From positions 1 through 38,823 of the forward strand of contig CALXDC010000026.1 in the NCBI GenBank assembly GCA_944386975.1: a DNA stretch of 38,823 nucleotides, read 5' to 3'. Positions 13,194-20,852 of this stretch are shown in pieces; the first letter of the stretch is position 1, and each line of letters opens with the position of its first letter. The position numbers were made by a program, and so were the translations under genes. Below the pieces are notes generated by a model. That model was not told where the DNA came from, did not search any database, and saw only the letters and a list, made by a program, of their open reading frames with translations. Source of the stretch: an uncultured Oscillospiraceae bacterium (GTDB lineage: Bacteria; Bacillota; Clostridia; Oscillospirales; Oscillospiraceae).

Positions 13194-13230
13194 GCAAAAA
13201 AGCGGCGCATTGCCGGAAAGCAATGCGCCG
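13194..13230 (-). terminator. Intrinsic terminator after the cupin gene
   Basis: Perfect 11-bp stem CGGCGCATTGC (13203-13213 with 13220-13230) followed on the minus strand by a six-T run. It lies 47 bases past the cupin stop and closes the bil-cupin operon. Confidence 0.9.
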
Positions 13231-13277: not shown

Positions 13278-13709
13278 TCAGTACTCTGTATGGACGGCGT
13301 CCTCCTGGGTGCAGTGGCGGGTCCCCTTGGGGTGCTTCGGCGGCCCGTAGAGGGAGGAGACCTTCAGCGGTGCGCGGTCACTGGCGTTGCAGATGTTGTG
13401 CCAGTACCCCTTGGGGATCAGCACGGCGTCGCCGGCAGTGAGGCGGCAGCGGAAATCCAGGTGCTCCCGGCACTGGCCCATACAGACCAGGGCGCAGCCC
13501 TCCTCCACCCGGACGAACTGGTCCGTTTCCGGGTGGCACTCCAGGCCGATCTCCCCGCAGGGGGGAATGTGCATCAACGTCAGCTGCAGGAAGCTCCCGG
13601 TCCATACGGCGGAGCGGAAAGCGGTGTTCTCGTGGGCGGCGGCCGCCATTCTGACGGCCCAGGGCGACGCCCCGTGGTCAGTGCCGCCGCAGGGGCAGTT
13701 GGTGTTCAT
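13278..13709 (-). CDS. Small cupin-domain protein downstream of bilS
   Basis: A 143-residue single-domain cupin. Motif 1 is CGEIGLECHPETDQFVRVEEG (one His, one Glu and the usual glycines; a glutamate-cysteine stands where the first HxH histidine is usual) and motif 2 is the canonical GDAVLIPKGYWHNICN. These residues normally hold a divalent metal. An N-terminal CPCGGTDHG stretch is cysteine-rich. The ATG at 13709 has AGGAGG about 9 bases upstream. It follows bilS by 58 bases on the same strand with no strong terminator between, and a strong terminator after it, so it is probably the last gene of the bil operon. It may bind a small ligand or metal; its function is unknown. Confidence 0.85.
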   Translation of the reverse strand: MNTNCPCGGTDHGASPWAVRMAAAAHENTAFRSAVWTGSFLQLTLMHIPPCGEIGLECHPETDQFVRVEEGCALVCMGQCREHLDFRCRLTAGDAVLIPKGYWHNICNASDRAPLKVSSLYGPPKHPKGTRHCTQEDAVHTEY

Positions 13710-13767
13710 AGGACAGACCTCCTTTTCAGGCGTGCCTTGCCATCCTATGCGGCGGACCGCCTCTCCG

Positions 13768-14250
13768 TTACGCCGTCACCGCCGCCCGCAGCCGCTGCAG
13801 GTCCTCTTCGTCGGGGTGGGACAGGGCCCGGTCAAAGTTCTCCAGCATGGCGGTGCGCCGGGGGCTGTCTTCCATGGCCGCATAGCGGTCCCGCACCGCC
13901 TGGGGCATTTTCCCCTGGCACATGAAGGTCCCCGCCACCGCGGCCTCCGGGGGGAGGTGGGCCTTCACCCGGGAGAGAATCTGGTCGAAGTAGGCGGGAG
14001 CGCCGACGAAGCCGGCGGTGCCGAAGAGAAACACCCGCTTGCCGGCAAGACCGGCCAGAAAGGCGGCCATGTCCTCGCTGCAGGCGCCCTTGTCGGTCCA
14101 GAACCCGGCGTAGACGGTGTCCGCACCCAGGGCTTGAGGGTCCGGAGGGCCGAAGTAGAGGCAGTCCTCCGGGGAAAGGGCCTCCCGGATCGTCTGGGCC
14201 AGCAGGGCGGTGTTGCCGGTCCGGCTCTGAAAAACGATGGCGTAGCTCAT
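13768..14250 (-). CDS. bilS: Flavodoxin-like protein, BilS
   Basis: A 160-residue flavodoxin-family protein. The FMN phosphate loop is FQSRTGNTALLAQTI (residues 7-21), followed by a strand-loop DTVYAGFWTDKGACSEDM and VFLFGTAGFVG, the second FMN-contacting loop. The C-terminal part, with FMCQGKMPQAVRDRY and an Asp/Glu-rich helix, resembles the flavodoxin-like proteins that accompany bilirubin reductase. Its ATG at 14250 overlaps the bilR stop by 4 bases (ATGA) and has AGGAGG upstream. In the published bilQRS operon BilS increases BilR activity, probably as an electron-delivery or flavin partner; the assignment rests on that gene order plus the fold. Confidence 0.85.
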   Translation of the reverse strand: MSYAIVFQSRTGNTALLAQTIREALSPEDCLYFGPPDPQALGADTVYAGFWTDKGACSEDMAAFLAGLAGKRVFLFGTAGFVGAPAYFDQILSRVKAHLPPEAAVAGTFMCQGKMPQAVRDRYAAMEDSPRRTAMLENFDRALSHPDEEDLQRLRAAVTA

Positions 14251-15359
14251 AGGATTTCCTCCTTTTCATAGATACAGTGGACGCCCTGGTGGGCCATCAT
14301 ACCCCCGAGACAGGCCTTGTTGCAGCGGACGCAGCGGCGGATTTCGCCGGTCCGTCCCTCCGCCGCCTTCCGGGGCCAGTCCGGGTCGGCGATGAGCTGG
14401 CGGCTCATGGCCACGCAGTCCACCCGTCTCCTCCTGAGCTGTTTCTCCACAAAGTCCGGGTCCGTCAGCCCGCCCACACCGCAGATGGGCAGGGCCGTCA
14501 GGGCCCGCACCCGGTCGCACAGCGGCAGAAAGCAGCCCTCCGCACCGAAAGCCGGGTGGTTTTTGGGGGGAATGGTGTCGGTGAGGGCCCCGTGGTTGGC
14601 CAGGGTCACGTGGAAGCTGGTGACTCCCGCCGCCTCCAGCAGAGGTACGAAGACAGGCAGCTCCTCCTCCAGTACCCCGGCATTCCCGTAGTGAGGGGCT
14701 TCCCGGCGCACCGCCAGCTTGTAGTCGATGGGGATGTCCGGCAGGCGGCGGCGGATGGCGGACACCGCCTCCACGGCAAACCGGGCCCGGTTTTCGGCGC
14801 TGCCGCCGTAGCAGTCCGTCCGGTGGTTGAAGACGGAGGAGCTGAAGCTGCCGCACATCCGGTCCCCGTGGACCTGGATCATGTCGAACCCCGCTTGAAG
14901 GGCCAGCTCCGCCGCTGTGCCGAAGCTCTCGGTGATCTTCCGGATTTTCTTTTGGGGGAGGTTCGTGATATAGGGCCCCACCTGCTGGTTGAGAAGGGGG
15001 CGCAGCGCCTCCTTGGAGATCCGCCCGGTCAGCACGCCGGGGAGGTATTTTCCCATGGCCCTGATATTGGCGTCGGACTGGTGGAGCTGGGCGCAGAGGA
15101 GGCAGCCCTCCCGGTGGACGGCGTCGGCCAGGGCGCGGTAGAAGGCCCGGCCCTTCTCCGTGTAGAGGGAGGGGACAAAGGCGTGGGGCAGCACCGGCAC
15201 GTCGCCGATGATGATCATGGCGCAGCCCCCCGCGGCGATCCGCCCCAGCCGGGCGGTCAGGTCCTCCCCCCGGAGGCCCATGGAGGTGGGGGCGAAGATC
15301 ACCCGGTTCTTTAAGGAAATCCCGCCATAGGAGATGGGGCTGGTTATGGTCTCGTACAA
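14247..15359 (-). CDS. bilR: Bilirubin reductase, Old Yellow Enzyme family
   Basis: A 370-residue Old Yellow Enzyme/2,4-dienoyl-CoA reductase-type flavoprotein. The FMN barrel starts with KNRVIFAPTSMGL; QLHQSDANIRA and the active-site segment IQVHGDRMCGSF follow. H164-G165-D166-R167 is the HGDR motif that, as I recall from the 2024 description of BilR, distinguishes bilirubin reductases from ordinary family members, with the same numbering. Near the C terminus C343, C346, C350 and C362 (Cx2Cx3Cx11C) should hold a 4Fe-4S cluster. It lacks the C-terminal NAD/FAD domains of the longer dienoyl-CoA reductases, so electrons must come from another protein such as BilS. The start is TTG at 15359 behind AGGAGG; it overlaps bilQ by 16 bases. 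The predicted reaction is bilirubin to urobilinogen. Confidence 0.9.
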   Translation of the reverse strand: MYETITSPISYGGISLKNRVIFAPTSMGLRGEDLTARLGRIAAGGCAMIIIGDVPVLPHAFVPSLYTEKGRAFYRALADAVHREGCLLCAQLHQSDANIRAMGKYLPGVLTGRISKEALRPLLNQQVGPYITNLPQKKIRKITESFGTAAELALQAGFDMIQVHGDRMCGSFSSSVFNHRTDCYGGSAENRARFAVEAVSAIRRRLPDIPIDYKLAVRREAPHYGNAGVLEEELPVFVPLLEAAGVTSFHVTLANHGALTDTIPPKNHPAFGAEGCFLPLCDRVRALTALPICGVGGLTDPDFVEKQLRRRRVDCVAMSRQLIADPDWPRKAAEGRTGEIRRCVRCNKACLGGMMAHQGVHCIYEKEEIL

Positions 15360-15769
15360 GGGCCGTTCCCCTCCTTTCCCGCCGCCTTGGCCAGAAGGGC
15401 CAGCAGCTGTTCCTGCTCCGCCGGGGTGAGGGAGGACAGGTGCAGTGCGTCCCAGTCGAAAAATACCTGGTGGCTCACGGCAAAGGCCTCCCGGCCCCTC
15501 TCACTCAGGCCCAGGCGGTAGGCACGGCCGGACTTCTCCCGGGTGAGGAAGCCCTCCTCCACCAGGCGGGTGATGCTCCGCTGGGAATAGCCCCAGTCCA
15601 GCCCCAGAGCCGCCGTCAGCTCCGCCTGGGAGCAGCCGGGGTGCTTGCCCACGTAGAGGATGGGGAACAGCGAACCGAAGCTGAGTCCCAGAGCCTGGAG
15701 CCGGGACGTGGTGTAGGCGGTGAAGCTGCGATGGAGGACCGTGGCGTAGTAGGCCAGGGTTTCAAACAT
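15344..15769 (-). CDS. bilQ: MarR-family regulator, BilQ
   Basis: A 141-residue winged-helix MarR protein. The recognition region is SQAELTAALGLDWGYSQRSITRLVEEGFLTRE, followed by the wing RAYRLGLSERGREAF; the N- and C-terminal helices would form the dimer interface. It heads the operon bilQ-bilR-bilS, the published order, and overlaps bilR by 16 bases. The ATG at 15769 has AAAGGAG about 12 bases upstream. Two 15-bp palindromes flank and overlap the promoter immediately upstream (15791-15833) and are almost certainly its binding sites, so it should repress its own operon and release it on binding a ligand, perhaps a bile pigment. Confidence 0.9.
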   Translation of the reverse strand: MFETLAYYATVLHRSFTAYTTSRLQALGLSFGSLFPILYVGKHPGCSQAELTAALGLDWGYSQRSITRLVEEGFLTREKSGRAYRLGLSERGREAFAVSHQVFFDWDALHLSSLTPAEQEQLLALLAKAAGKEGNGPCTRP

Positions 15770-15790
15770 GTGCGGTCCACTCCTTTCTTA

Positions 15791-15833
15791 CTTGACTTTG
15801 TCAAGTATAACAAATACACTTGACAAAGTCAAG
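15791..15833. promoter_or_regulatory. Double MarR operator upstream of bilQ
   Basis: Two perfect-arm palindromes, CTTGACTTTGTCAAG (15791-15805) and CTTGACAAAGTCAAG (15819-15833), 28 bases centre to centre. They differ only in the central TTT/AAA. One covers the -35 box of the bilQ promoter and the other begins at the end of the -10 box. Confidence 0.9.
15804..15832 (-). promoter_or_regulatory. bilQRS promoter
   Basis: Minus-strand TTGACT (15827-15832), 17-base spacer, TATACT (15804-15809). It is embedded in the double operator, so repressor binding would block RNA polymerase. Confidence 0.88.
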
Positions 15834-15867
15834 TACAATAAAAAATGCAGAATGTGCAGTGCCCCCC

Positions 15868-15930: not shown

Positions 15931-16596
15931 TTGAAGCCGGAACGAAAGATCCGCTATGTGGAGATCACCGGGGAGATTCTGGAGGAGGAGGGCATCGAGG
16001 GCGTCACCATCCGGAAGGTGGCGGCCCGGGCCGGGTGCACCAGCGCGGTGCTCTACAAGCACTTTGAGAACAAGGAGCACCTTATCATGCTGGCCTCGGT
16101 GAAGTTTCTGGAGCCCTACATTCTGGAGTTCATCAAGCAGACCGGCCGTAAGGACATCAACTCCATCCAGATGGATCTGATCCTGTGGAAGTTCTTCATC
16201 CAGGAGGCCTTCCGCCACAAGCCCTACTATGAGCTGATGTTTTTCAGCGACCAGCGGGATATGCTTCCCGACTGCGTTTATGAGTATTATCAGATGTTTC
16301 CGGAGGTTCAGCGCAGCTTTGACGGCTTTTCCGCCAGCATCATCTTCAGCAACAACCTCAGCGAGCGGGAGCTGGTCCGCCTGCGCCGGGCCGCCCACGA
16401 GGGGCTCATCACCATGGAGAACGCCACCCTCCTCAGCCGGCTGTCGGTGGCGGTGTTCAACGGCCTTTTTACCCAGTACGCCGGGGAGGCCATGACCGAG
16501 ACGGAGATCCGCTTCGCCTCGGAGGATTGCTACCGCCTGATCTACGCCCTGTTCCAGCGGTTTCTGGAGCCGGGGACCAGGATGGACGCAGAATAA
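15931..16596 (+). CDS. TetR-family regulator of the MttB-BCCT locus
   Basis: A 221-residue TetR-type regulator. The helix-turn-helix is IRYVEITGEILEEEGIEGVT, then IRKVAARAGCTSAVLYKHFENKEHL (about residues 7-52), with an all-helical ligand/dimer domain after it. The start is TTG at 15931, chosen because AAAGGCGGTGAG (15916-15927) precedes it and there is no earlier start past the promoter. It is divergent from bilQ and precedes the methyltransferase and transporter genes on the same strand. A palindrome at its own promoter and two related sites ahead of the methyltransferase gene suggest autoregulation and control of that operon. The ligand could be a quaternary amine (inference). Confidence 0.88.
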   Translation: MKPERKIRYVEITGEILEEEGIEGVTIRKVAARAGCTSAVLYKHFENKEHLIMLASVKFLEPYILEFIKQTGRKDINSIQMDLILWKFFIQEAFRHKPYYELMFFSDQRDMLPDCVYEYYQMFPEVQRSFDGFSASIIFSNNLSERELVRLRRAAHEGLITMENATLLSRLSVAVFNGLFTQYAGEAMTETEIRFASEDCYRLIYALFQRFLEPGTRMDAE

Positions 16597-16612
16597 GTTC
16601 CCAGGGAAAATC

Positions 16613-16638
16613 TGCCGATAGCACCTATCGGCATTTCT
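16613..16638 (+). terminator. Hairpin after tetR, possible terminator
   Basis: Perfect 9-bp stem TGCCGATAG (16613-16621 with 16625-16633) followed by TTTCTT, 17 bases past the tetR stop. The T tract is short, so termination may be partial. Confidence 0.55.
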
Positions 16639-16651
16639 TCCACCCCAAAAA

Positions 16652-16736
16652 GTAATCATGATGACTTTTCGGCAGTCGAAAGGCCGGGCGGACAGAGCGC
16701 CGCTTTCTTTTCGGCGGTCGAGATAATCGTGATGAC
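16652..16736. promoter_or_regulatory. Two TetR operator-like sites upstream of the methyltransferase gene
   Basis: GTAATCATGATGAC (16652-16665) and ATAATCGTGATGAC (16723-16736) match the operator at 15901-15914 in 10-12 of 14 positions. Each adjoins a copy of TTTTCGGCRGTCGA (16666-16679 and 16709-16722), so the region is an inside-out imperfect duplication. I see no strong -35/-10 pair here. Confidence 0.6.
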
Positions 16737-16791
16737 TTCATAAGACGATCAAACACAAAACCTTTTGATGGAAAGAAAGGAGCATGTTACA

Positions 16792-18225
16792 ATGAAAAAG
16801 GAAGAGATGGCAGCGCGGGATCAGGAGATCGTGGAGAAGATCCACCGGACCAGCCTCAGGATTCTGGAGGAGATCGGCATGGCCTTCCACTCGGAGCGGG
16901 CTCTGGAGCAGCTGCGCCAGGGCGGTATCCGGGTGGAGGGAAACCGGGCTTACTTCACGGAAAAGCAGGTGATGGACGCCATGGACGCCGCTGTGAAGGA
17001 CTTCACGGTGTACGCCCGTAATCCCAAGTACAACGTCCGCATGAACACCGAGGATCTGTACATGACCCCCGGCTACGGCAGTCCCTCCGTCTGCGAGGCC
17101 GACGGCACCGTCCGTCCCGCCACCTTCGACGACTTTCTGAAGCTGGCGGAGATCGTCCAGCAGAGTGAGGAGTTCGCCATCAACGGCGGCATTCTGGCCC
17201 AGCCCTCGGACATCGACGCGGAGATCTCCGCTGAGGTGATGGTCTACGCCACCCTCTGCCGGTCCGACAAGGCCCTGTTCTCCGTCTGCGGCGGCGGGGT
17301 CCAGGCGGAGAACATCATGAAGATGATGCGCATCGTCTTCGGCGGAGATATCACCGAGATCCCCTGCACCTTCAACCTCATCTCCACCCTCAGCCCCTTG
17401 GGCGTCACGGAGAACACCCTGGAGACCATCGAGGTCTGCGCCCGCAACGGCCAGCCCCTGGTGCTGGCCCCGGGCAACATGGCCGGCGCCACCGGCCCCA
17501 TCTCCCTGGCGGGCAACACGGCTCTCGCCAACGCGGAGATTCTGGGCACCAACGTCTACGCCCAGCTCATCCGCCCCGGCACCCCCATCATCTACGGCTT
17601 TGCCTCCACCGTCAGCGACATGAAGAACATGCAGGTGTCCAACGCCAGCCCCGGCTTTGTGAAGGAGGCCAAGTACGGCGCTCTGATGGCCAAGCGGTAC
17701 GGTCTCGCCTGCCGCAGCGGCGGCGGTATGTCCGACGCCTCCGGCCTCACCGCCCAGGCCGGTGTGGAGAGCGCCATGAGCATGTTTGAGTCCTTCTCCG
17801 AAAAGGCCAACCTGATGATGCACGCCACCGGCTCCCTCCACTCCTTCAATACCGTGAGCTTTGAGAAGTTCCTTCTGGATATCGAGACCTACACCCGGAT
17901 GAAGTACTACTTCAGCGACCTCCCCGACGACGAGGACGCCCTGGCCTTCGACGCCATCCAGGAGGCGGTGGAGGAGGGCGGCGTGTTCATCACGCTGGAC
18001 CACACCTACGAGCGCTGCCGTGTCGATCCCTGGTATAGTCAGGTGTCCATCCACACCAACACCAAGGGCGATCCCAATGCGGCGCTTTACGCCTCCATCC
18101 AGAAGCGGCTCCAGGCTCTGCTGGACGGTTATACCTGTCCCGCCCTGCCGGCGGAGCAGCGGCAGGCCCTGGACGAGATCATGCGGGGTCTCGGCATGAA
18201 GGCCGCCGACATGGCCAAGGTCTGA
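16792..18225 (+). CDS. MttB-superfamily methyltransferase without pyrrolysine
   Basis: A 477-residue member of the trimethylamine methyltransferase (MttB) superfamily: KIHRTSLRILEEIGMAFHSE at the N terminus, PGYGSPSVCEADG, PTTFDDF-like RPATFDDFLKLAEIVQ, GQPLVLAPGNMAGATGPISLAGNTALANAE and CRSGGGMSDASGLTAQAG are typical. Founding MttB proteins contain an in-frame amber codon read as pyrrolysine; this frame is open throughout, so it belongs to the non-pyrrolysine branch, whose known members demethylate glycine betaine, carnitine or proline betaine and pass the methyl to a corrinoid protein. The ATG at 16792 has AAAGGAG 9 bases upstream. No corrinoid protein gene lies nearby. The BCCT transporter downstream supports a quaternary amine substrate. 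Confidence 0.9.
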   Translation: MKKEEMAARDQEIVEKIHRTSLRILEEIGMAFHSERALEQLRQGGIRVEGNRAYFTEKQVMDAMDAAVKDFTVYARNPKYNVRMNTEDLYMTPGYGSPSVCEADGTVRPATFDDFLKLAEIVQQSEEFAINGGILAQPSDIDAEISAEVMVYATLCRSDKALFSVCGGGVQAENIMKMMRIVFGGDITEIPCTFNLISTLSPLGVTENTLETIEVCARNGQPLVLAPGNMAGATGPISLAGNTALANAEILGTNVYAQLIRPGTPIIYGFASTVSDMKNMQVSNASPGFVKEAKYGALMAKRYGLACRSGGGMSDASGLTAQAGVESAMSMFESFSEKANLMMHATGSLHSFNTVSFEKFLLDIETYTRMKYYFSDLPDDEDALAFDAIQEAVEEGGVFITLDHTYERCRVDPWYSQVSIHTNTKGDPNAALYASIQKRLQALLDGYTCPALPAEQRQALDEIMRGLGMKAADMAKV

Positions 18226-18253
18226 GCAAAACGGGAAACGAGGTAGTGCAGCC

Positions 18254-19171
18254 ATGAAACGATCGGCCATCAAAAAATACGGGACACTGCTGCTGCTGTC
18301 CTGCGGAGCCGGATTCATCTTCCAGCTCCCCTTCATCCGGGAGACCTTCTACATCCCCATCCAGAACGCCATGGGCCTCTCCAACGCCCAGATGGGCTCC
18401 CTCAACGGCTGGTACGCCGTCGTGGCCACCCCCGCCTACTTCCTGGGGGGCATCGTGGCGGACAAGTTCTCCCCCAAGGTGATGCTCACCTTCTCCTTCC
18501 TCTCCACGGGCCTTCTGGGCCTCTGGTTCTCCCTCTTCCCGGGCTACACCGTCAGCCGGGTGATCTTCGCCCTCATGGGCTTCACCACGGTGATGACCTA
18601 CTGGAGCTCCGTCATCAAGGCGGTGCGGATGCTGGGGGACTCCAGCGAGCAGGGGCGGCTGTTCGGCCTCCAGGAGGGGCTGCGGGGCTTTCTGAACGCC
18701 CTGCTGGTTTTTGTGATGGCGGCGGTCTACGCCTCCTTCGCCGACAACATCAAGGGGGCCGCGGCGGCCATCCGGCTGTGCGCAATTTTGCTGCTGGTGA
18801 TCGGCGTCCTCTGCTGGCTGGTCATTGAGAACACCAACGCCAAAGAGCAGACCGAGTCCCTCAAGGACGTGTGCATCGGCATGGTGAAATGCATGAAGAT
18901 CCCCAGAGTGTGGCTCCTGGCGGGGATCGTGTTCACCGCCTACAGCATCTACGGCCTTATGAGCTACATCAACACCTACCTCGTCACTCTCTACGGCATG
19001 TCGGAGACGGCGGCGGCCAACTTAGGCGGCATCCGGTACCTCATGCAGGGCGTGGGCGGCATCATCGGCGGCTTCCTGGCGGACAAGATCCGCTCCCGGC
19101 TGAAGGTCATCGGCGGAGCGGCGGCTCTGCTGTCAGTGGTGAAGAGGGACCGCAGAAAGGCGGCGCAGTAA
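18254..19171 (+). pseudogene. MFS transporter lacking its C-terminal third
   Basis: A 305-residue protein with the first eight or so membrane helices of a major facilitator transporter. The N half contains LNGWYAVVATPAYFLGGIVADKFSPKV (the GxxADKxSPK loop between helices 2 and 3), and the pseudo-repeat of this loop, GGIIGGFLADKIRSRLK, appears at residues 273-289. Normal proteins are 400-450 residues; here the frame ends soon after that loop in a charged tail, VVKRDRRKAAQ, that does not look like a membrane segment. Only 40 bases separate it from the BCCT gene, so the missing helices were deleted rather than shifted out of frame. The ATG at 18254 follows a weak GAGGT. It is probably a decaying gene, though a half-size transporter cannot be excluded. 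Confidence 0.7.
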
Positions 19172-19211
19172 GGGCCGTCCTGTTTGAGAAAGGGAGGAGG
19201 GAAGAGACCAC

Positions 19212-20852
19212 ATGGGAAAGAACCCGAGGGACCGGGAGGGCTGCCTCACCCTGAGGGAAGCTGTGGGCCGGGGAATCCGTCCGGCGGTGATTCTGGTGCC
19301 GGTGCTGATCTTTGTCACCCTCATTCTGGCGGGGACGGCGGCGCCGGAGCAGTTCATGGCGGTGCTGAACGCCGTGTTTGCCGGCCTCATGGTCCACGGG
19401 GGATGGCTGGTGTCCCTTGGCACCCTGCTGTTTGTGGTGTTCATGGTGGTGATTCTGGTCCACCCCATCGGAAAGGTGAAGCTGGGGGGCGAGGACGCCC
19501 AGCCGGAGTACAGCACCTGGAACTGGTTTGCCATCTCCCTGTGCGCCGGCATCGGCACGGGCATCGTCTTCTGGGGGGCGGCGGAGCCCCTCCGGTTTGC
19601 GGTGGAGCCTCAGCTCTCCGCCGGCATTCCCCCCGACTCCCGCTCCTCGGTGATCTGGGCCCTCTCCAAGCGCTACCTCCACTGGTCCTTTGCCCCCTAC
19701 GCCTGCTACGGCATTTTCGGCCTGTGCATCGCCTACGCCGTCTACAACCTCCATCGAAGCTATGCGGTGAGCGCCGCTTTCGCCCCCGCGCTGGGAGAGG
19801 TGACGGAGCGGAAGTGGTTCCGGGGGATTGTGGACACGCTGACGGTGTTCGCCATCACCGGAGGGGTGGCCGGGTCTCTCGGCTACGGCCTTCTCCAGAT
19901 CTCCAGCGGCCTCAACCAGCTCTACGGCGTGCCTCGGACCACCTGGGTCTATGTAGCCATCTGCGTGGTGGTGGTGGGGGTGTACAACACCGCCAGCGTC
20001 ACCGGCGTGGACCGGGGCATCCGCTGGCTCAGCGACAAGAATGCCTGGATGTTCCTCATCCTTCTGGCCCTGGTGTTTCTCTCGGGGCCCGGGTCCTGGA
20101 TCTGCAATCTCCTGGTGGAGTCCGTCGGGTCCTTCCTCTCCACCTTCCTCTCCTCCATCACCTCCACCGCTCCCTTCGCAGACAGCGGCGCGGCGGTGGG
20201 GGCCGTGTGGCACGAGAGCAGCGAGCTGTGGTCCCAGTGGTGGGATCAGTACTACTTCGTGGACTTTCTGGCCTTCGCCCCGGTGACGGGCCTCTTCCTC
20301 ATCAAGTTGGCCAGGGGGCGGACCCTCCGGGAGTTCATCGTCATCAACTGGATCGTCCCCTCGGTGTTCGGCATCGTCTGGTTCGCCATCTTCGGCGGGC
20401 TGGCCCTGGATATCCAGTACAACTTCGCCGACTACGCCGGTCAGATCAGTCTGGAGGGCTGCGAGAGCCTCTTCGCCTATATGGAGACCTACGGCAATGA
20501 GGCCATGCTGCTGAAGGTGGTGGAGGCCATCCCCTTCTCCCAGGTGGTGAAGCCGGCGGTGCTGGTGCTCATCACCCTGTCCTTCGTGACGCTGGCCGAC
20601 TCCATGACCTCCACAGTGGCCCTCATGACCATCCGGGACAACCGGGGGGTTCGGGAGGCCCCCGCCTCCATCAAGCTCTTCTGGGGCATTCTCATGGGGG
20701 CCGCCGCCCTGGTGTTCACCCTCACGGGGAACATTGAGGGCATCAAGATCGTCAAGACCATCGCCGGATTTCCCATTTTGCTGCTGGGCATGGTGATGGT
20801 GGTGCTGTTTGGGACGGCGCTGCTCCGGGGAGAAAAGGAACAGAAGAAATAG
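19212..20852 (+). CDS. BCCT-family betaine/carnitine/choline transporter
   Basis: A 546-residue secondary transporter with about 12 hydrophobic helices. Family marks: NWFAISLCAGIGTGIVFWGAAEP (the Na/substrate site around helices 3-4), WALSKRYLHWSFAPYACYG, VTGVDRGIRWLSDKNAW and the signature WSQWWDQYYFVDFLAFAPVTGLFLIKLARGRTLREFI, whose tryptophans form the aromatic box for trimethylammonium groups. Members import betaine, choline or carnitine, or exchange carnitine for butyrobetaine. The ATG at 19212 has GGAGG about 12 bases upstream. It is the last gene of the operon with the MttB-family methyltransferase and probably brings in that enzyme's substrate. Confidence 0.93.
   Translation: MGKNPRDREGCLTLREAVGRGIRPAVILVPVLIFVTLILAGTAAPEQFMAVLNAVFAGLMVHGGWLVSLGTLLFVVFMVVILVHPIGKVKLGGEDAQPEYSTWNWFAISLCAGIGTGIVFWGAAEPLRFAVEPQLSAGIPPDSRSSVIWALSKRYLHWSFAPYACYGIFGLCIAYAVYNLHRSYAVSAAFAPALGEVTERKWFRGIVDTLTVFAITGGVAGSLGYGLLQISSGLNQLYGVPRTTWVYVAICVVVVGVYNTASVTGVDRGIRWLSDKNAWMFLILLALVFLSGPGSWICNLLVESVGSFLSTFLSSITSTAPFADSGAAVGAVWHESSELWSQWWDQYYFVDFLAFAPVTGLFLIKLARGRTLREFIVINWIVPSVFGIVWFAIFGGLALDIQYNFADYAGQISLEGCESLFAYMETYGNEAMLLKVVEAIPFSQVVKPAVLVLITLSFVTLADSMTSTVALMTIRDNRGVREAPASIKLFWGILMGAAALVFTLTGNIEGIKIVKTIAGFPILLLGMVMVVLFGTALLRGEKEQKK

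Follow-up and report, generated by a model that had tools for sequence, protein, structure and literature searches.

Reduction of bilirubin is a core gut function, and one of the known systems closest to the locus studied here is the bilQRS operon that Clostridium symbiosum and Clostridioides difficile carry (PMC10769871). In the accessible part of that paper, the arginine of an HGDR motif in the reductase BilR is assigned to the position held by a tyrosine in the dienoyl-CoA reductase of E. coli, and the DR residues of the motif were mutated. A bioRxiv preprint of 2026 (PMC13252198) reports, in the passages available, that BilR alone reduces the methine bridges only, giving divinyl-urobilinogen, and that biliverdin is also accepted; reduction of the vinyl groups is attributed there to BilV, an enzyme with an AHAH motif, and bilV is nearly absent beside the short form of bilR (0.4% of species). 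Our search of the literature (listings and passages of open papers) returned no description of a BilQ operator and no account of how bilirubin reduction is regulated. Here, we analyze a bilQRS operon, its promoter, and the cupin gene that follows it in an uncultured Oscillospiraceae bacterium, on a contig of 38,823 nucleotides (CALXDC010000026.1 of GenBank assembly GCA_944386975.1), the whole of which we call the window. The genome spans 2.66 Mb in 96 contigs and is 90.48% complete. We suggest, with a probability of about 0.78, that this is a short bilQRS operon repressed by BilQ through a double palindrome, that BilR and BilS would yield divinyl-urobilinogen, and that the cupin gene was added in the ancestor of two species.

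A short bilQRS operon

The three bil genes lie on the minus strand and overlap, bilR and bilQ by 16 bases and bilS and bilR by 4. The MarR-family regulator gene bilQ (15344..15769, 141 amino acids) comes first; its product scores 148.8 bits against the NCBIfam model NF045593, for a cut-off of 125, and also matches the MarR_2 family. It is followed by bilR (14247..15359, 370 amino acids, TTG start), encoding the short-form bilirubin reductase (NF045592, 545.1 bits, cut-off 425), and by the adjoining flavodoxin-like gene bilS (13768..14250, 160 amino acids; NF045594, 213.1 bits, cut-off 155). The only domain found in BilR is PF00724, without fused C-terminal domains. The first-pass annotation, made from the letters of the window, had recognized bilQRS in the order MarR, Old Yellow Enzyme (OYE), flavodoxin; the three scores and the HGDR motif bear this out, the tree described below less firmly. 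HGDR at residues 164-167 and a Cx2Cx3Cx11C site are both present as in that annotation, and the latter begins at residue 343. The motif is not new, since HGDR has been published as a BilR signature (PMC10769871, accessible part). We hold the identity of the bil genes with high confidence and, judging from their sequences, the operon is a further example of the already known short-bilR type of bilQRS.

A conserved double palindrome at the bilQ promoter

A sigma-70-like promoter (TTGACT-17-TATACT, 15804..15832, minus strand) precedes bilQ and contains two TTGACnnnGTCAA palindromes at a spacing of 28 bases, one lying over the -35 box and the other fused to the -10 box. The first candidate operator (CTTGACTTTGTCAAG, 15819..15833, minus strand) includes the -35 box TTGACT, and the second (CTTGACAAAGTCAAG, 15791..15805, minus strand) overlaps the -10 box TATACT at its end. 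Both palindromes fit the 15-base pattern CTTGACnnnGTCAAG, for which shuffles of the window average 0.04 matches at one mismatch. Two exact copies are present in the whole genome, both at the bilQ promoter, along with six copies carrying one mismatch.

We surveyed the bilQ promoter in 52 loci, namely our own and the 51 of 60 relatives' loci with a detected BilQ, allowing one mismatch per site. The pair was found in 41 of them (spacing 28 in 38 loci, 27 in three), a single site in eight, and none in three, and exact sites outside promoter regions number two in the 784,229 bases of these same loci. All 42 pairs at spacing 28 share one geometry, in which copy 1 holds the -35 box and copy 2 overlaps the -10 box across a 17-base spacer; the -10 box reads TATACT in 38 of them. 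The fixed spacing of the palindromes thus follows from the arrangement of the promoter boxes. We hold the conservation of the palindromes with high confidence, and loci where the genes are separated serve as an independent test. Where bilR has no adjoining bilQ, the pair is retained before bilR (in L010, L015, and L055, and with one mismatch in each site in L029), and each of these four genomes encodes a BilQ above the cut-off elsewhere. Three of these four unlinked bilQ genes also have the pair in front of them (one site with a mismatch), and the fourth has a single one-mismatch site.

The pair was then sought in 394 genomes across the order, at one mismatch over the whole pair; 33 of these are bilS-positive, 31 above the BilS cut-off. 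It was found in eight genomes, seven of them bilS-positive (hypergeometric probability 1.2e-7, a value that ignores relatedness), and a control scan of the same genomes with the reversed pattern gave no match. In the eighth genome, G519, the pair stands directly before a BilQ-like gene. We also observed, downstream of the match at L203 1501-1541 (genome G529), a frame on the plus strand that looks MerR-like by eye.

From these patterns, the double palindrome is very probably an operator of BilQ. We further consider it likely that it plays this part throughout the short-bilR relatives, also in trans, and that in this lineage the pigment-controlled transcript recruited a metal cupin.

Predicted chemistry and the partners of BilS

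Three OYEs above the Pfam cut-off were found in the genome: BilR, with HGDR, and two others, both without AHAH. No BilV is thus seen among the three, in a genome whose 90.48% completeness means that one could be missing, and complete reduction to urobilinogen is not predicted. A route from bilirubin to urobilinogen, as first annotated, was therefore an overstatement; given the BilR-only chemistry reported in the available passages of PMC13252198 and the lack of an AHAH enzyme among the OYEs found, the predicted product is divinyl-urobilinogen. By the same passages, genomes with a short bilR and without bilV should be read as divinyl-urobilinogen producers. Several relatives carry poultry-derived names, which makes biliverdin a plausible, and we think likely, substrate.

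We also looked for bilR, at E 1e-60, in ten hand-picked genomes, nine of them bilS-positive. It adjoins bilS in G137 and G529. In G385, bilQ and bilS stand behind a palindrome pair (L205 1331-2337) and bilR lies in a frame of 675 amino acids on a separate contig; bilS occurs at two places in G421, whose bilR, in a 651-amino-acid frame, is likewise on a contig of its own. No bilR match was obtained at this threshold in G032, G223, G255, and G331, all with BilS above the cut-off, or in G092, where bilQ and bilS also follow a palindrome pair (L206 4863-5977) and BilS may have a different partner. As bilS genomes without a bilR match exist, a match to BilS alone is no proof of bilirubin reduction.

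The cupin gene at the end of the operon

The last gene (13278..13709, minus strand, 143 amino acids) begins 58 bases after bilS, preceded by its own ribosome site, AAAAGGAGG. It encodes a cupin, as indicated by Pfam (Cupin_2, 1.2e-10), by a sequence match to PDB entry 2oa2 (E 2.2e-35), and by its predicted model (mean predicted local distance difference test score 82.9), which Foldseek aligns to 2oa2 at 9.1e-17 with template modeling scores of 0.85/0.92 and 48% identity. This structural-genomics entry is the single close match in the structure search. In an alignment of 27 cupins, 27 columns are identical in all rows, including E57, H59, Q64, and H104, which are presumably the positions where cupins bind metal; with both the conserved residues and the fold present, the protein belongs to the BH2720 type. 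It has ten cysteines (the median of the alignment is one), and eight of the rows have 2 to 11.

An intrinsic terminator follows the cupin gene (13203..13230, minus strand), with 12 pairs and a T tail; its hairpin (13230-13203) folds at -21.9 kcal/mol (z -4.65), and the sequence of a congener shows a matching hairpin. The count of such sites is weak evidence alone, because the scan found five where shuffles predict 2.2. The scan's other hits on this strand are either short or coincide with the candidate operator palindrome. The gap of 58 bases and the strong terminator behind the cupin had both been pointed out in the first-pass annotation and were verified. A stretch upstream of the gene (window 13705-13775) may pair with the start codon (CATAGGA/TCCTATG), weakly (z -2.13).

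To place the cupin among other bil loci, we collected 92 rows, 85 of them distinct, of which 71 have BilS, 70 have BilS with at least 400 bases downstream, and 50 have a linked BilR. A BH2720-type cupin follows bilS in two of the 70 distinct loci (two of the 50 with linked BilR), our own and that of the congener G007, and a profile of this family detected no further member among all 92 rows. The two proteins are 97% identical, their genes differing by 13 synonymous and four nonsynonymous codons, and gap, gene, and terminator are all retained across the two species. BH2720-type cupins are otherwise common, being found in 27 of 200 genomes of the family (E 1e-10) and 92 of 391 of the class (E 1e-20), own genome counted. 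Beyond the two species, identity to the nearest ones is 57-60%, and at best 50% in the class sample, so no donor was found. Around 28 homologues, taken from 26 further genomes of the family, the neighborhoods retrieved, which cover up to about 6 kb per side and less at contig ends, contained no bil genes. Clustering of the neighbors with G008 added, run once on crude frame calls that include antisense frames and once on every frame of at least 90 amino acids within 4 kb, gave both times a maximum of 3 of 29 neighborhoods for any neighbor family. That maximum is reached by a membrane-protein-like gene, similar copies of which lie no more than 4 kb from the cupin homologue in three of the 29 (L112 6651-7685, L124 7068-7745, L143 7062-7841).

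With two of 70 bilS loci and no bil gene in 28 neighborhoods, the cupin looks like a lineage-specific add-on, and we rejected it as a general bil gene. The proposed extension of the operon is real and conserved in a second species, but it is confined to these two loci among the 70, and in the neighborhoods retrieved the relatives of the cupin show no link to bil genes. To the question raised with it, how often the cupin follows bilS in other genomes, the answer is the one further locus given above. The added gene is probably accessory and probably of general function.

Two other explanations of the gene must be weighed. The cupin could be a mere neighbor, transcribed from an unseen promoter of its own, outside the bilQRS transcript. 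Its own ribosome site, the gap before it, and the lack of fixed neighbors around its relatives elsewhere would fit; but within the gap, neither the terminator scan nor the promoter scan, which covered promoters of the sigma-70 type only, reported any site, and we regard this explanation as unlikely. Slightly less probable again is a function for the cupin as a fourth component of bilirubin metabolism, in which it would bind or convert a pigment, an oxidized by-product, or a metal. It shares strand and terminator with bilS, with no terminator-like site between them; a second species has preserved the arrangement, and the protein has changed little; and its E/H/Q/H positions are common to its family. 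Against this stand the rarity of the cupin after bilS and the neighborhoods of its homologues, without bil genes in the stretches retrieved and with no neighbor family in more than three of 29. Moreover, in the congener G008, bilQRS and a 58% identical cupin lie on different contigs, and the cupin occurs in just one of the seven other bilS genomes of the family sample (two of the seven being below the BilS cut-off). Confidence in any pigment role of the cupin is therefore low, and pigment binding is without support here.

Placement of BilR and neighboring genes

We built a BilR tree of 59 rows, omitting four of the 60 loci (L060, L062, L063, and L064, with scores of 400 or less). The window BilR and 56 BilR-like relatives separate from the two other OYEs of the genome with support 99/97; no row of this group is known to be the tested enzyme of C. 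symbiosum or C. difficile. HGDR is present in 56 of the 60 relatives' loci. L050, L054, and L058 form a well-supported BilR-like group without HGDR, in which no BilQ or BilS was detected and no exact palindrome occurs.

The nearest relative of the window BilR is that of L006, followed by L009 and L012 (99/96). BilR of the congener G008 (L008) falls outside this nearest group, yet the aminotransferase of G008 is 95% identical to its homologue encoded next to the operon in the window; an aminotransferase-aldolase-TetR block is seen without adjoining bil genes in G008, G002, G006, G010, and G001 (the contig of G002 stops nearby). From these two observations we infer that bilQRS may have reached the lineage separately, which would be consistent with the horizontal transfer proposed in the accessible part of PMC10769871. 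The aminotransferase homologue of G008 (G008:C3:25243-26739) reads with one in-frame TGA. Positions 15931-20852 of the window encode a divergent TetR, a methyltransferase of the MttB superfamily below the TIGR02369 cut-off, a BCCT transporter, and an unclassified frame of 305 amino acids, MFS-transporter-like by eye; these genes probably serve the use of quaternary amines.

Discussion

In the explanation that we favor, BilQ would occupy the two palindromes that span the -35 and -10 boxes of the promoter from which it is itself transcribed. RNA polymerase would be kept out until BilQ is released by a ligand, for which a bile pigment is the most likely candidate. BilR, with flavin mononucleotide and a 4Fe-4S cluster, would then reduce both methine bridges of bilirubin or biliverdin to divinyl-urobilinogen, a chemistry taken from published work on its relatives; the electrons would probably be delivered by BilS. 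A metal cupin of a common, stand-alone kind would have become the last gene of the bil transcript before this species and one congener diverged. It would be made whenever the operon is induced, and its role would most likely be the general one of its family.

Several observations weigh against this explanation. The scan of the order finds the pair in seven of the 33 bilS-positive genomes and misses 26, and one of the nine places found (that of G529, with one mismatch) precedes no bil gene. The sequences compared are related and so do not count as independent events, and since sites were picked by pattern, conservation within the pattern is not to be read from them. That BilS carries the electrons has been published as a guess, and five of the nine hand-picked bilS genomes gave no bilR match at E 1e-60. 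Finally, three rows of the BilR-like group lack HGDR, and the outgroup of the tree consists of two very long branches; for these reasons, and with no row known from the tested strains, the NCBIfam score is a firmer guide to BilR than the tree. As for an ordinary conserved sigma-70 promoter in place of a BilQ operator, the palindromes do contain both boxes, whose geometry accounts for the spacing, but a promoter has no need of mirrored GTCAA halves, and complete palindromes are found repeatedly in front of bilQ but hardly anywhere else in those loci. Where bilRS and bilQ are unlinked, the promoters of both carry them. All of this makes the explanation very improbable.

A conserved operator would provide a direct handle on when, and by which pigment, the pathway switches on, as well as a DNA marker for the regulon; if the proposed repression is true, BilQ would act in nature as a sensor of bile pigments. 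As the cupin shows, genes can be added to the bil operon, but no firm new chemistry comes from this one.

Compared with the BilR/BilV system, as far as the available passages of PMC13252198 describe it, this locus has in common the BilR component and the predicted reduction of the methine bridges of bilirubin or biliverdin, and differs in that no BilV-like enzyme is among the three OYEs found in the genome. With the bilQRS operons of C. symbiosum and C. difficile, it shares the same MarR, short OYE, and flavodoxin genes and HGDR at residues 164-167, according to the accessible part of PMC10769871; the cupin is added here as a fourth gene, and the word "cupin" is absent from the main text of that paper. 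The cupin itself resembles the BH2720-type protein of 2oa2 in fold, in 48% identity over the structural match, and in its E/H/Q/H positions, whereas here it is rich in cysteine and its gene has a place in a bil operon.

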